This document shows positions 42,459 to 48,764 of a stretch of 64,000 nt of DNA, one piece after another. Each line of letters begins with the position of its first letter. The first letter of the stretch is position 1. This stretch comes from Nitrospirota bacterium (GTDB lineage Bacteria; Nitrospirota; Nitrospiria; 2-01-FULL-66-17). A model generated the notes under the pieces. The model was not told the DNA's origin, did no database searches, and saw only the letters and a list, made by a program, of their open reading frames with translations. Both the position numbers and the translations under genes were made by a program. The stretch is taken from assembly GCA_040757335.1 (NCBI GenBank), contig JBFLXB010000005.1, forward strand, positions 1 to 64,000. The letters run 5' to 3'.

Positions 42459-42493
42459 CTAGCTTTGCGCACCCCTTCCCTCGGAGGTGTCCT

Positions 42494-43666
42494 GTGGCAC
42501 CACGAGATGTGTCGCTGGCCCTTCTGCTGTTGTCTGTCGCCCTGTTCGTTCTCGCCACGTATGCTGCGCGCGCACGTCTGATCTTTTCGAGTGCCGGGAC
42601 GGTGGTGTTCTTGACCGCCGTCTTGGCGTTCTTTTCGAACTGGCCCCCTCTGCAAGTCCGCGGCGAAGTCCCTGCGTCAGGATTCCCGCGCCTCGGCCAG
42701 AAGCCGGCCGAAGCCTACACGACGGAGGAACTGGCCTATTTCGGGGAGCTCATCATTTTCGGAGAAGTAGGCACGCTCCGCGGCCAGGGCAAAGGGCAGT
42801 GTCCCTTGTGTCACGCGTTTCGGCCGGAGGATGTCCCGCAACGGGCGCCAAACTTAGCGGGTATCACCAGACGCGCGGCGGAGCGGATCAAAGAGTCTCG
42901 GTATCTGAACCCAGATACGGTCCAGACCGAGTCGTTCAAGGGGAGCGGTCGGGCGCGCACGGCGGATGAATACATCGCCGAGTCCCATATCTGTACGAAC
43001 TGTTATGTCGCGGAAGGGTACGGCGTCAAAGGCTCGAACGACCGCGAGAGCCCAATGGCAATGGATCACGTGCCGCCGATCGGCCTGAACGTCGACGAGA
43101 TGATCGCGGTCCACACGTTTCTATATGTCCACGACGGGGAGGTTCCACCGTCTCCCGCGCAGATTCGAGCGGATCACCAGCGCTTTCTCCCGCCTGGGTG
43201 GCGCGCGGCGGATGGCTCGACAGCCTCCCTCGGGGCACCTCCGAGTCCTGTCGTCGTGACTGGAACGGACACTCCAGAGCGCATAATCGCCAATCTGGGC
43301 TGCGGAGACTGTCATACCATTCCCACGACTGCCTATCGGAATGGCTCTTCCGGGCCGGTGTTGATTGCCAAGACCACGGCCCCCGCACGCATCGCGTCTG
43401 CGGAGTACCAGACGAGTGTAAAGACGGGCAAGGCGCATGCGACGACGCCCAAGGAATACATTATTGAGTCGATCATGCATCCCAGCGCGTATATCCCCTC
43501 GGCGTTCGTCGACATGAAGAATGCCGACATGTCGATCATGCCGGGTTATTCGGGCAAGCTGACCTTCGAGGCCGCCGACAAATTGGCTGATTTTCTGCTG
43601 TCCATCGACGAGGGAGCGGCGGCGAGAGACGGCATCGTGGTTGATCATGAGGGGAGGAAGGGCTGA
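42494..43666 (+). CDS. Membrane-anchored multi-site cytochrome c-type protein of the oxidase cluster
   Basis: 390 residues from GTG 42494 (GGAGG upstream). Two N-terminal membrane helices (about 6-24 and 31-48) precede an exported region. CPLCH at 103-107 and CGDCH at 270-274 are proper heme-binding motifs. A third site at 167-171 reads CTNCY, so the His ligand is Tyr, one base from CAT. MSIMPGYSG may supply a distal Met. It probably feeds electrons to the bd-like oxidase genes next to it. Whether the CTNCY site was ever a heme site is uncertain. Confidence 0.75.
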   Translation: MAPRDVSLALLLLSVALFVLATYAARARLIFSSAGTVVFLTAVLAFFSNWPPLQVRGEVPASGFPRLGQKPAEAYTTEELAYFGELIIFGEVGTLRGQGKGQCPLCHAFRPEDVPQRAPNLAGITRRAAERIKESRYLNPDTVQTESFKGSGRARTADEYIAESHICTNCYVAEGYGVKGSNDRESPMAMDHVPPIGLNVDEMIAVHTFLYVHDGEVPPSPAQIRADHQRFLPPGWRAADGSTASLGAPPSPVVVTGTDTPERIIANLGCGDCHTIPTTAYRNGSSGPVLIAKTTAPARIASAEYQTSVKTGKAHATTPKEYIIESIMHPSAYIPSAFVDMKNADMSIMPGYSGKLTFEAADKLADFLLSIDEGAAARDGIVVDHEGRKG

Positions 43667-43684: not shown

Positions 43685-45658
43685 ATGCCGCTGAGAAACG
43701 TGCCTCCGGTCATCTCGCTGGTGATGGCAGCTGTTGCCTGGTACCGCTACTACATTGTTTCCGGCCTCATTCTTGTCGGCATGGTGCTCCTCGTGTTGCC
43801 GGCTTTTTGGGCCGTTGATGCGCCTCCTGCGGGTGCCACAGATCAGACATCGATGCGCGAACAGCAGCCCGATCCAATATCCGCCACAGGGAAGGATGTC
43901 TACTTCAAGATTGAGGGGCCGATCTCGGGTTTCCCAGCCCCACATCTGACCGCTCGCGACTATCCTCAAATCCCTCTGCCGTGGCCCCTTAGCGAGAGTC
44001 GGATCGTGATGTGGGTGCTCGGCCAACAGCATCTGTATTTCGGGGCGTTCGTGCTGGGGGCTTTGTTCTGGATCATGGGCCTGGAATTGCGTGGCGTGCT
44101 CGCACGGAAGGCGGATGCGGCTTAACGATACGACGGTGCGGCCCAAGATGTGTTGGGCCTCGTGGTCCTGGCGGTTTCCGGGGCCGCGATCTCGGGGGCG
44201 GTCTTGTTGTTGGCGTTCGTGTCCTTGTACCCGGACTTCGCGAAATATCTGATCGGGGTGTTCCGGCCGTTTGTCTGGATCTATGGGCTGTTGTTCATCG
44301 CGTTCAGCCTGGCGATCTATCTCTACTACTACTTGTGGCAGCGGATGGCAGCAGGATCCGCGAAATGGATCCACGCGACGTTGGGCGTTGTCGTTAACGT
44401 AATGGGCAACGCGATCATGATGATCGGCAACTCCTGGGGGACCTTTATGATGTCGCCAGCCGGCGTGGATACGCACGGCCGGTCTTTGGGGAATTATGCA
44501 GGTGTCTTGCACAATGCGCTGTGGAATCCATTGAATGTGCACCGATTTGCGAGTCACCTCATCTTTGGCGCCATTGTTATCGCGGCCTATGCGGGTTATC
44601 GTGCGTTGAAGGCCAAGAGCGCTGATCAGGGGGACTTCTATAACTGGATGAGTCAGACGGCGTTTCTCGCTCTGCTCCTTGTCCTGTTTACGGTTCCTTT
44701 TGGCGGCTACTGGTTGCTGCGAGAAATCTATTTGTACAGACAGCAAATGTGGATTACGTTGACCGGCGGGCTATTGGCTTGGCTCATCGTGATTCTGGTC
44801 CTGCTGATGGCCATATTGTTCCTGGCCATCAATTACTATCTCTGGCGGAGAATCGGGTCTTCCCCTGGCGGCGTCTCGTACCAGCCCCATGCGAAATGGA
44901 TCTTCTTGATCCTCGCGCTATGTGCCATGGTCTATATCAGCCCACATACGCTGGTGATGCGGGCCGCCGAGCTCGTTGCGATCGGAGGCCAGCAGCATCC
45001 GGTGGTCGGAAACTATGGCACCGAGGCATCCAAGCAGGCTGCCGTGAATGTCATGATGGCGGTCACGATATGGTCGTTGCTGATGTGGTGGCGAAGTCGG
45101 TACGAGCTAAAGCCTGGCCGATCCTCGCTGGACGTGATTCTGATTGCTCTGTTCGTGGCCGGTGCGGCCAATATCATCTGGCTGTCAATCATCGGGTACT
45201 TCATTCCCGCAAACGTCCGGGTCGGGCAGTCGGTTCCCATATTCATGACGACCCTTCACCTCATCGTCGTGGGATCGCTCTTAACGTTCGCGAGGGTTTA
45301 TGGGGCCAAAGCGCTGGGCCCCAGAGCATCGGGACCCCTGACGTGGAAGGGCTATCTCGCGGTGCTCACGATGGCTGCGGCGATCACCTGGCTCATGGGC
45401 CTCGGGGGGTACCTACGATCGTCGGTGCGTCTATTCTGGCACGCGATGGAGATATTTCGTGATGCCTCGCCGTGGGCCTTTACCCACACGATAGGAGTCA
45501 TGGGGAATGTGATCACCTTCAACGCATTGCTCTTCTGGGGCATTCTGATCGTCATCATCTGGCTGAAACAGTGGGAGCCAAGCGCCGCGCAGAACCGCAA
45601 TGTCCGATACCGGCAGAGATCGAGTGCGACCGACACACCGTCTTCAGCGGTCACTTGA
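43685..45658 (+). pseudogene. Cytochrome bd-like oxidase large subunit, first copy, split by an in-frame TAA
   Basis: Codons 1-146 (43685-44122) are followed by TAA at 44123-44125, and the same frame stays open to 45658. It matches the intact second copy across the break: ARKADAA-stop-RYDGAAQDVLGLV here, ARKPDAAQRYDRAAQDVLGLV there. The stop is thus one base from the CAA Gln codon. No indel is needed. A GTG at 44150 could restart the second part (502 residues), so two polypeptides are possible. Membrane helices and CydA-like segments (GQQHLYFGAFVLGALFWIMG, WGTFMMSPAGV, FGGYWLLREIY) are intact. Sequencing error, decay or a split gene all remain possible. Confidence 0.8.
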
Positions 45659-45788
45659 CGGCGTGGTGAGCCGCCGCTCGGAGAAATTGGAGATTCGCTG
45701 GTGGTTAGCGGTGCCCAGTCGGGCATCGCTCAACGCCGAAGTGTTTGGTTGAACGCGTCGTGCTGACCGCTTTCCTTGGAGGTGTCCC

Positions 45789-47783
45789 ATGACACCACGG
45801 GATGCGCCGCTGGTCCTTCTGCTGGCAGATGAAGTCCTGCTGCTGGTGTCGGCTGTTGTCCTGCTCGTCATCGCCGCGTGGGGCCCTCGCGCGCGCAGGC
45901 GAAAATACCTGTACATCGCTTCCGGTCTCGTCGTTGCCGGCTTAGTGCTCTTCATGTTGGCGGCGTTACCACCTCCGTCTGATTATGGGTACCCTCCAGG
46001 CTCCAGCAGCGGTCAGGCAGGAACGGATGTCTATTTCAAAATCGAGGGTCCGATCTCGGGTCCACCAGCCCCCCGCCTGACTGATCGCGACTATCCTCAA
46101 ATCCCTCTCCCATGGCCACTTGGCGAGAGTCGGGTTGTGATGTGGGTTCTCGGCCAACAGCATCTCTATTTCGGGGCATTCGTGCTGGGGGCCTTGTTCT
46201 GGATCATGGGCCTGGAGTTGCGGGGGTTGCTGGCGCGAAAGCCGGATGCGGCTCAACGCTACGACAGGGCGGCCCAGGACGTGCTGGGCCTCGTTGTGTT
46301 AGCGGTATCCGGGGTCGCGATCTCTGGCGCGGTGTTGCTGTTGGCGTTCGTGTCCTTGTACCCGGACCTCGCCAAGTATCTGATCGGGGTGTTCCGGCCA
46401 TTTGTCTGGCTCTATGGGCTCCTGTTCATCGCCTTCAGCGTGGCGATCTATCTCTACTACTACATGTGGCGGCGAATGGCGGCAGGCTTCTCCAAGTGGA
46501 TCCACGCGACTCTTGGCGTGGTCGTCAATGTGGTAGGGAACGTGATCATGATGATCGGCAGCTCCTGGGGGACCTTTATGATGTCGCCGGCCGGGGTTGA
46601 TGAACGCGGCCAATTCTTGGGGAGCTACATCAACCTGTTGCATCACGCGTTGTGGAACCCCTTCAATGTGCACCGGTTTGCGAGCCATCTCATCTTCGGC
46701 GCAGCCGTCATCGCGGCTTATGCGGGTTATCGCACGCTCAAGGCCGAGACCGAGGATCAAAGGACTCTGTATAACGGGATGTGCCAATCAGCAGTCCTGG
46801 CCCTGTTCTTCGTCCTGGTGACGGTGCCATTCGGCGGCTATTGGCTGCTGCGCGAAATCTATGCGTACCGGCAGCAGATGGGCATCACTCTGCTCGGCGG
46901 CCTATTGGCCTGGATCAGCATTGTCCGAGTCCTCCTTGTGGGCATTCTGTTTCTTGTCGTCAATTACTTTCTTTGGCGGACAATTGAGTCCACCCCGGGA
47001 GGGGCACGGTACCGACCCCATGCGAAGTGGATTTTCGTAATTCTTACAATTGCCTTCATTGTCTACATGACCCCCCATACGTTGGTCATGAGGGCGGCCG
47101 AACTGAAAGCCATAGGAGGTCAGCAGCATCCCATCATCGGGAACTACGGCGTCGAGTCGTCCAAGCAGCCGGCCGTGAACATCATGATCGTTGCCTCGAT
47201 GTGGTCCGTGCTGATCCTGCGGCGGAGTCGGTACGAGCTGAATCCTGGCCGATCGGCGATCGACGCGGCGCTGATCGGCCTCTTCGTGGTCGGTAGTGCG
47301 AACATTATCTGGCTTGGAATCATCGGGTATTTCATCCCGGCGAACGTGCGGGTCGGGCTGTCGGTTCCGATGGTGCTAACAACGCTCCACGTCGTGATCG
47401 CGGGCGCGCTCTTAACGCATGCACGGGTTTATCACGCCAAACCGCTGAGCCAGCGGGCGGCCTGGGGACCACTGTCATGGAAGGGCTATCTCGCGGTGCT
47501 CGCGACAGCTGCGGTGGTCACCTGGCTCGTGGCAATCGGGGGCTATCAGCGATCTACCGTGCGGCTGTTCTGGCATGCGATGGAGATCGTTCGTGACAAC
47601 TCGCCGTGGGCCTTTACCCACACGATTGGCTTGATGGGAAATGTGATCGCCTTCAACGCATTGCTCTTCTGGTCGATTCTCTTCTTCCTCGTGTGGCTGA
47701 GTAGGGCGGGAGAAGGTCCTTCAGCAGTTGGTTCTGAAGAGCTTGTGTCCGCGAACAAGGGGCTGGTCGCTGTGAAGCGCTAA
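45789..47783 (+). CDS. Cytochrome bd-like quinol/cytochrome oxidase large subunit, second copy
   Basis: 664 residues with a dozen or more membrane helices. GQQHLYFGAFVLGALFWIMG has a His in an early helix, and SSWGTFMMSPAGV resembles the W-M-Q-x-P-x-G helix of CydA. HRFASHLIFGA and PHTLVMRAAEL give more possible heme ligands. The protein is longer than CydA and lacks an obvious CydB partner. A similar bd-like oxidase is reported in Nitrospira (from memory). TTGGAGG precedes the ATG. It duplicates the preceding gene but is uninterrupted, so it is probably the working copy. Confidence 0.75.
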   Translation: MTPRDAPLVLLLADEVLLLVSAVVLLVIAAWGPRARRRKYLYIASGLVVAGLVLFMLAALPPPSDYGYPPGSSSGQAGTDVYFKIEGPISGPPAPRLTDRDYPQIPLPWPLGESRVVMWVLGQQHLYFGAFVLGALFWIMGLELRGLLARKPDAAQRYDRAAQDVLGLVVLAVSGVAISGAVLLLAFVSLYPDLAKYLIGVFRPFVWLYGLLFIAFSVAIYLYYYMWRRMAAGFSKWIHATLGVVVNVVGNVIMMIGSSWGTFMMSPAGVDERGQFLGSYINLLHHALWNPFNVHRFASHLIFGAAVIAAYAGYRTLKAETEDQRTLYNGMCQSAVLALFFVLVTVPFGGYWLLREIYAYRQQMGITLLGGLLAWISIVRVLLVGILFLVVNYFLWRTIESTPGGARYRPHAKWIFVILTIAFIVYMTPHTLVMRAAELKAIGGQQHPIIGNYGVESSKQPAVNIMIVASMWSVLILRRSRYELNPGRSAIDAALIGLFVVGSANIIWLGIIGYFIPANVRVGLSVPMVLTTLHVVIAGALLTHARVYHAKPLSQRAAWGPLSWKGYLAVLATAAVVTWLVAIGGYQRSTVRLFWHAMEIVRDNSPWAFTHTIGLMGNVIAFNALLFWSILFFLVWLSRAGEGPSAVGSEELVSANKGLVAVKR

Positions 47784-47837: not shown

Positions 47838-48764
47838 ATGCCGATCTGGGAATCATTCTGGATTCGGGGATTCATCCCGGTTCAATTCCTCCTTGTACTG
47901 TTGTTCGCGTTCTTGGTATTCGTTGCCGCGAAGCCGATTCTCCGACGTTTCAATATGCACATCACGGCCTTTTGGCAGGCGCTTCTAGTCTGGTTCACCG
48001 GCTACGCAATCTTCAAGTTCGTGGTCGTCCCGCCGCTGCCGTCGCACATGTTTTACCAGTACATGGGCGTCATCGCCGCGGCGACGTTTCTGTGGGTGTC
48101 GGCGACCGACGACTCGTGGAACGAGTGCAAACACACGGTGCTGTCGCTGTTGGGCGGGCGAACGCCAGGGTGGAGGGTAGCCCGAGCGCTCCTGTTCACA
48201 TCGGCGCCGGTTCTGGTCGCGATGAATCTCCATGATTCACTGACGCCGAAGTTTCCGGAGCCGGTCGAGCTGCGCACCTGGGGCGGCGCCCCGCCGAACA
48301 GCATTCTCGTGGACGATGCGTGGTTTACGCTGAGTGAGGAACGAAACCCCTTCCGTGTCGATGAACTTGGCAGGTATTCCGATACGGTGCAGAGTCAGCG
48401 CAGCGATGCGGACCCTTGGAATTCGAACGCAATCCCGTACCTGCGCTACGTCCGTGAGGGAGGGGTGCTCTATTTTCAAGAGTGCCACTATTGCCGCGGA
48501 GCCGCCCTGGATGGTCGGGGGATTTTCAGCAACACGATGATGCCCTTACCGGGTAACTTTTCCGATTCCGGGTTAATTGCCCAGCGCCAGGAATCCTACC
48601 TATTTTGGCAAATCTACGCTGGTGGGATTGGAATGCCCATCGAGACTTTTCCGTGGGCGCAGACTATGCCCGCTTATCGAGAAGTGCTGAGTCCGCACGA
48701 CGCCTGGAAGGTCATCCTGTTCCTATACTGGGCTACCGGATACGAGCCTCGGACCTGGAATTGA
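47838..48764 (+). CDS. Membrane protein with cytochrome c-like C-terminal domain and altered heme motif
   Basis: 308 residues from ATG 47838 (GAGGAA upstream); a GTG 14 codons earlier is possible. Three or so N-terminal helices (about 8-28, 45-65, 75-95) precede a cytochrome c-like domain. That domain has one C-x2-C site at 216-220, CHYCR, where Arg replaces the His ligand (CGC, one base from CAC). The rest resembles a mono-heme domain: DGRGIF, MMPLPGNFSD and a C-terminal helix PHDAWKVILFLYWATG. It probably belongs to the oxidase complex. Loss of covalent heme binding is inference. Confidence 0.65.
   Translation: MPIWESFWIRGFIPVQFLLVLLFAFLVFVAAKPILRRFNMHITAFWQALLVWFTGYAIFKFVVVPPLPSHMFYQYMGVIAAATFLWVSATDDSWNECKHTVLSLLGGRTPGWRVARALLFTSAPVLVAMNLHDSLTPKFPEPVELRTWGGAPPNSILVDDAWFTLSEERNPFRVDELGRYSDTVQSQRSDADPWNSNAIPYLRYVREGGVLYFQECHYCRGAALDGRGIFSNTMMPLPGNFSDSGLIAQRQESYLFWQIYAGGIGMPIETFPWAQTMPAYREVLSPHDAWKVILFLYWATGYEPRTWN

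Follow-up and report, generated by a model that had tools for sequence, protein, structure and literature searches.

Is the single in-frame stop codon in the first of two tandem bd-like oxidase genes of an uncultured Nitrospirota bacterium the trace of a recent gene loss, a sign of unusual translation, or an artefact of assembly? The pair lies in the window, by which we mean the whole 64,000-nucleotide stretch analysed (positions 1 to 64,000 of contig JBFLXB010000005.1, assembly GCA_040757335.1). The initial annotation of this DNA named four options without choosing between them: a fresh pseudogene, a protein made as two pieces by restart at GTG 44150, suppression of the stop, and a wrong base. 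We consider it likely that a recent nonsense mutation inactivated the first of the two bd-like (CydA-like) oxidase genes, which would make it a fresh pseudogene in a redundant accessory cluster.

The interrupted frame and its cluster

One codon interrupts an otherwise continuous gene. The frame at 43685-45658 (+ strand) comprises 658 codons and ends in TGA, and its one internal stop, TAA 44123-44125, lies in the peptide context KADAA*RYDGAAQDV, where the intact copy has CAA in AAQRYDRAAQDV (Table 1). Translation and comparison with the intact copy bear out the original observation of a TAA in place of CAA with the rest of the frame open, and the same codon, which was proposed for checking in relatives, is a sense codon (K, R or Q) in all intact homologues compared. 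The stop falls after 146 of ~656 codons and so removes most of the conserved protein; no second lesion was found in the copy. Coding signal runs on immediately on either side of 44123, far beyond chance. When 481 kb of this genome were screened by codon potential, with junctions judged by eye and not by homology case by case, 11 candidates emerged; all except 44123 resemble ordinary junctions between neighbouring genes or weak-signal ends, leaving this as the sole stop with flanking coding signal that does not resemble a normal gene junction.

Table 1. Features of the bd-like oxidase cluster, in window coordinates
Feature	Coordinates	Strand	Evidence and remarks
Leader, ribosome-binding site GGAGG and first codons of cytochrome c gene	42471..42529	+	59 bp, 83% identical to 45766-45824, E 1.8e-9
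Cytochrome c gene, start GTG, CPLCH and CGDCH	42494..43666	+	Pfam Cytochrom_C 1.8e-06; 55% identical to C3 cytochrome
Broken copy, part before the stop	43685..44125	+	146 codons and TAA
Content of the part before the stop	43685..44125	+	N-terminal membrane segment, DVYFKIEGPISG stretch, core helix with QQHLYFG
In-frame TAA	44123..44125	+	CAA in intact copy; K, R or Q in relatives
Broken copy, part after the stop	44126..45658	+	510 open codons and TGA; Pfam Cyt_bd_oxida_I 1.4e-07; dN/dS 0.235
Open frame from proposed restart GTG	44150..45658	+	502 aa; without Shine-Dalgarno; out-of-frame ATG 44148 overlaps
Copy of cytochrome c leader before intact oxidase gene	45766..45824	+	GGAGG; repeat match
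Intact bd-like oxidase copy, 664 aa, ends in TAA	45789..47783	+	Homology; AlphaFold2 model best matched by cytochrome bd subunit I
Diverged partner of monoheme cytochrome	47838..48764	+	47% identical to C3 cytochrome; 37/110 conserved columns changed
CHYCR replacing CxxCH	48483..48497	+	In gene 47838-48764; only heme-c motif of gene lost

DNA identity between the two copies is 78.6% over 1,688 bp and protein identity is 74%; the draft genome (3.56 Mb in 61 contigs, 99% complete) holds three homologues, namely the tandem pair and one gene on another contig, C3. In the window the order is a cytochrome c gene with two CxxCH motifs, the broken copy, the intact copy and a diverged cytochrome gene, which probably starts at ATG 47838 and not at GTG 47796. 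This arrangement is a paralogue of the C3 cluster, where a single bd-like gene is accompanied by the same two cytochromes (identities of 55% and 47%). Duplication of a cytochrome-oxidase unit, followed by deletion of most of the second cytochrome, would be the simplest reading of the repeated leader. The intact copy has its own ribosome-binding site, GGAGG, so it would be translatable whatever befalls the first copy; a promoter and terminator scan returned promoter-like sites at chance level and no clear promoter dedicated to the intact copy. On C3, two genes with sulfatase-modifying-factor (FGE) domains (~1e-57 to 1e-59; L041:4796-7615, G000:C3) stand beside the bd-like cluster and are unexpected neighbours of a respiratory cluster. 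A search for the Type II DMSO reductase alpha subunit (NXR-like) gave no match above the cut-off, and nothing therefore marks the organism as a nitrite oxidiser.

Several lines of comparison bear on family and fold. The Pfam match of the part after the stop lies over the cut-off, and the intact copy alone gave no Cyt_bd_oxida_I match at E 0.1. The AlphaFold2 model of the intact copy reaches 80-90 in several core helices; in the PDB it is matched best by CydA chains (E 2e-05, probability 1.0), with low TM-scores and at a mean pLDDT of 63. A sequence search against solved structures gave no useful match. Searching contigs with the broken copy alone likewise yielded nothing, and an alignment used as query found homologues in N. 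moscoviensis, N. defluvii and others at 43–52% identity. No genome from this species or genus turned up, and the nearest homologue outside this genome is 52% identical.

Selection, age and decoding of the stop

Comparison of the two copies indicates that the broken one was maintained until recently. Purifying selection formerly acted on both sides of the stop: dN/dS between the copies is 0.133 over residues 61-146 and 0.235 in the part that follows the TAA, with an overall value of 0.256. When the nearest relatives serve as outgroups, the branches leading to the broken and intact copies are nearly equal (0.233 and 0.210), which points to a young break; in a tree with more distant sampling they are 0.294 and 0.203, and relative-rate tests between the copies were not significant. 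At 127 residues invariant in 25 homologues, private departures number nine in the broken copy and three in the intact one, a suggestive excess that is not significant, with drastic changes in the broken copy that include G356W, L515Q and W549S. A simple calculation gives it a neutral period of ~0–15% of the time elapsed since the duplication, which makes the stop, provided it is real, a young one; at 15%, ~4 stop-creating changes would be expected and at most one is seen (P(≤1) = 0.09). Open frame, past purifying selection and lack of a second lesion together give good support to the fresh pseudogene among the options first listed.

The missing relaxation of rate is as compatible with an intact gene and a wrong base as with a very recent break. 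The stop could be a consensus error, or a minority-strain base taken into the assembly, with the gene intact in the population, and we regard this as unlikely. One base separates the broken copy from an open frame, the copy has neither a significant rate increase nor a second lesion, and the assembly is a draft in 61 contigs. Against an error, the 481 kb screened in this same assembly show no other interrupted frame of similar kind, so the assembly is not generally noisy, and breaks in other subfamily members, with none among the main-clade copies compared (below), also speak for a real stop.

Read-through of the TAA by a suppressor tRNA or by recoding would accommodate the former purifying selection on both sides, but we judge it exceedingly improbable. 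Both RF1 and RF2 are present in the genome, and no tRNA with a stop anticodon was found among 43 tRNA genes, an incomplete set. TAA terminates the intact neighbour and 37 of 165 long frames in our sample, no other such stop occurs in the 481 kb, and the position is a sense codon in relatives; the suppression offered as an option at the outset thus finds little in its favour. The tRNAs for Ile, Leu-UAA and Ala-UGC are absent from the 43 found in the draft, from which we take the tRNA set to be incomplete; the rRNA operon region is probably missing from the draft.

Restart fares little better. A 146-residue N-terminal part and a 502-residue C-terminal part begun at GTG 44150 might assemble in the membrane: this GTG is in frame, 24 bases past the stop, and the stop sits at what is predicted to be a turn between two helices. 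Yet the GTG has no Shine-Dalgarno sequence, which neighbouring oxidase genes clearly have, and an ATG overlaps it in another frame (44148); the restarted part would also lack the first core helix with its conserved QQH motif. We therefore hold a product in two pieces to be very unlikely here, and relatives (below) bear on it as well.

Recurrent lesions in a rare sister clade

In the tree, the window pair groups in a clade that is sister to the main bd-like clade of Nitrospira (support 1.0). The organism's class is the one that contains Nitrospira, and its family also includes G001 and G002. Of 270 genomes in the class, 8 carry a DNA signature of the sister clade; the reversed control matched none. 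Together with the broken window copy, which itself does not carry the signature, this gives nine subfamily copies. Five are intact (the second copy in the window and those of G001, G042, G044 and G262), and four are broken (the first window copy and those of G259, G133 and G024) by lesions that differ and sit at different places. G259 has a TAG directly after the QQHL motif (QQHL*W stretch; L033), and its syntenic orthologue in G262 (L170) is intact. G133 has a TAA and frameshifts that introduce two TAG codons. In G024, a Nitrospira genome, a frameshift or a base error leaves two ORFs that overlap as TGATG (L203:4475-6285, G024:C5), a layout that would allow coupled translation. Stops in G057, G050 and G048 lie outside the gene, before its start or after its end, and were set aside.

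Internal stops are concentrated in this subfamily: 3/8 copies compared with 0/99 in the main clade, where none was seen among ~99 copies (P = 0.00028, an approximation in which species copies are counted as independent). G024 was left out of this comparison because it was found later and its lesion is a frameshift. The lesion cases across the subfamily all come from draft assemblies, and their recurrence is therefore provisional. A conserved recoding position was ruled out, as the stops of relatives lie at other places; such scatter would be expected of decay and not of recoding.

These relatives also weigh on a product in two pieces. The G259 frame likewise reopens with a GTG a few codons past its stop, and the G024 overlap would permit coupled translation. 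Set against this, relatives break at differing points, G133 carries several lesions, and 5/9 copies are intact single genes. A broader version, in which single lesions recur because the subfamily protein can function, or be turned on and off, in the form of two membrane pieces made apart from each other, is in our view highly improbable; some apparent pseudogenes of the subfamily would in that case be functional states.

The first annotation also held that the intact neighbour could relax selection on the broken copy. This is plausible as far as it goes, but it is incomplete: no relaxation is visible in the evolutionary rate, and breaks also occur in subfamily relatives for which the stretches read show no tandem partner, which makes the whole accessory subfamily seem dispensable. 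Its patchy distribution and the different lesions in its other members give the same appearance. Returning to inactivation by a recent nonsense mutation, tandem duplication yielded two bd-like oxidase copies in an accessory cytochrome cluster, and a single CAA to TAA change would have cut the first. Its translation would stop after 146 residues and leave a short, presumably useless membrane fragment, and the intact copy, with the separate C3 cluster, would cover any function still required. The finding holds and is an ordinary one, and the recurrence of lesions in a small subfamily is mildly interesting.

The downstream cytochrome and comparison with known systems

Erosion may extend to the last gene of the cluster. 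The histidine of CxxCH (CHFCH or CHWCH) is kept in 61/61 homologues of this gene, and the window gene has lost it and deviates at 37 of 110 conserved columns with its reading frame intact. In c-type cytochromes, loss of this histidine should prevent normal heme c, and by its motif the product probably binds none. Since the frame is intact, the gene may be in decay or may have taken on another function, and part of its divergence is expected of a distant paralogue because the homologue set is mostly main clade. The first cytochrome of the cluster retains both heme motifs. In the stretches read around the other subfamily members, no homologue of this cytochrome is present. Overall, the window cluster looks accessory and eroding.

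Provided the stop is genuine, the locus captures an accessory respiratory module in the course of its loss following a tandem duplication. The broken window copy and the three broken relatives in other genomes should not be counted as functional among the candidate bd-like terminal oxidases of Nitrospirota, and the adjoining cytochrome, which has no heme motif, is a further warning against reading electron transport from gene presence. The broken copy points to no new mechanism.

The closest known systems are those of Nitrospira, where relatives have been described as bd-like oxidases or OR-N type CydA, with a terminal-oxidase role that is proposed but unproven (PMC6606698, PMC12342949, PMC10839748). 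The window copies are homologous over their full length to bd-like_1 to bd-like_4 of N. moscoviensis (PMC6606698) and to OR-N type CydA (PMC12342949, PMC10839748), and they share with the Nitrospira systems a cluster with two c-type cytochromes, also seen on C3, and several paralogues per genome. They differ in that the pair falls in a separate, rare sister clade and is tandemly duplicated with one copy cut by a stop, and in that the partner cytochrome of the window cluster has no heme motif. In ‘Candidatus Manganitrophaceae’, bd-like proteins have been assigned to terminal oxidase complexes TO_1 to TO_4 (PMC9040806). Two of the nine subfamily members (G042 and G044) belong to Manganitrophaceae; unlike the window genes, these copies are single and intact, with no homologue of the downstream cytochrome in the stretches read. 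As in recent bacterial nonsense pseudogenes of duplicated genes, the broken copy has one premature stop, an otherwise open frame and an adjoining intact paralogue; all that sets it apart from ordinary cases of that kind is that lesions recur within a single small subfamily.
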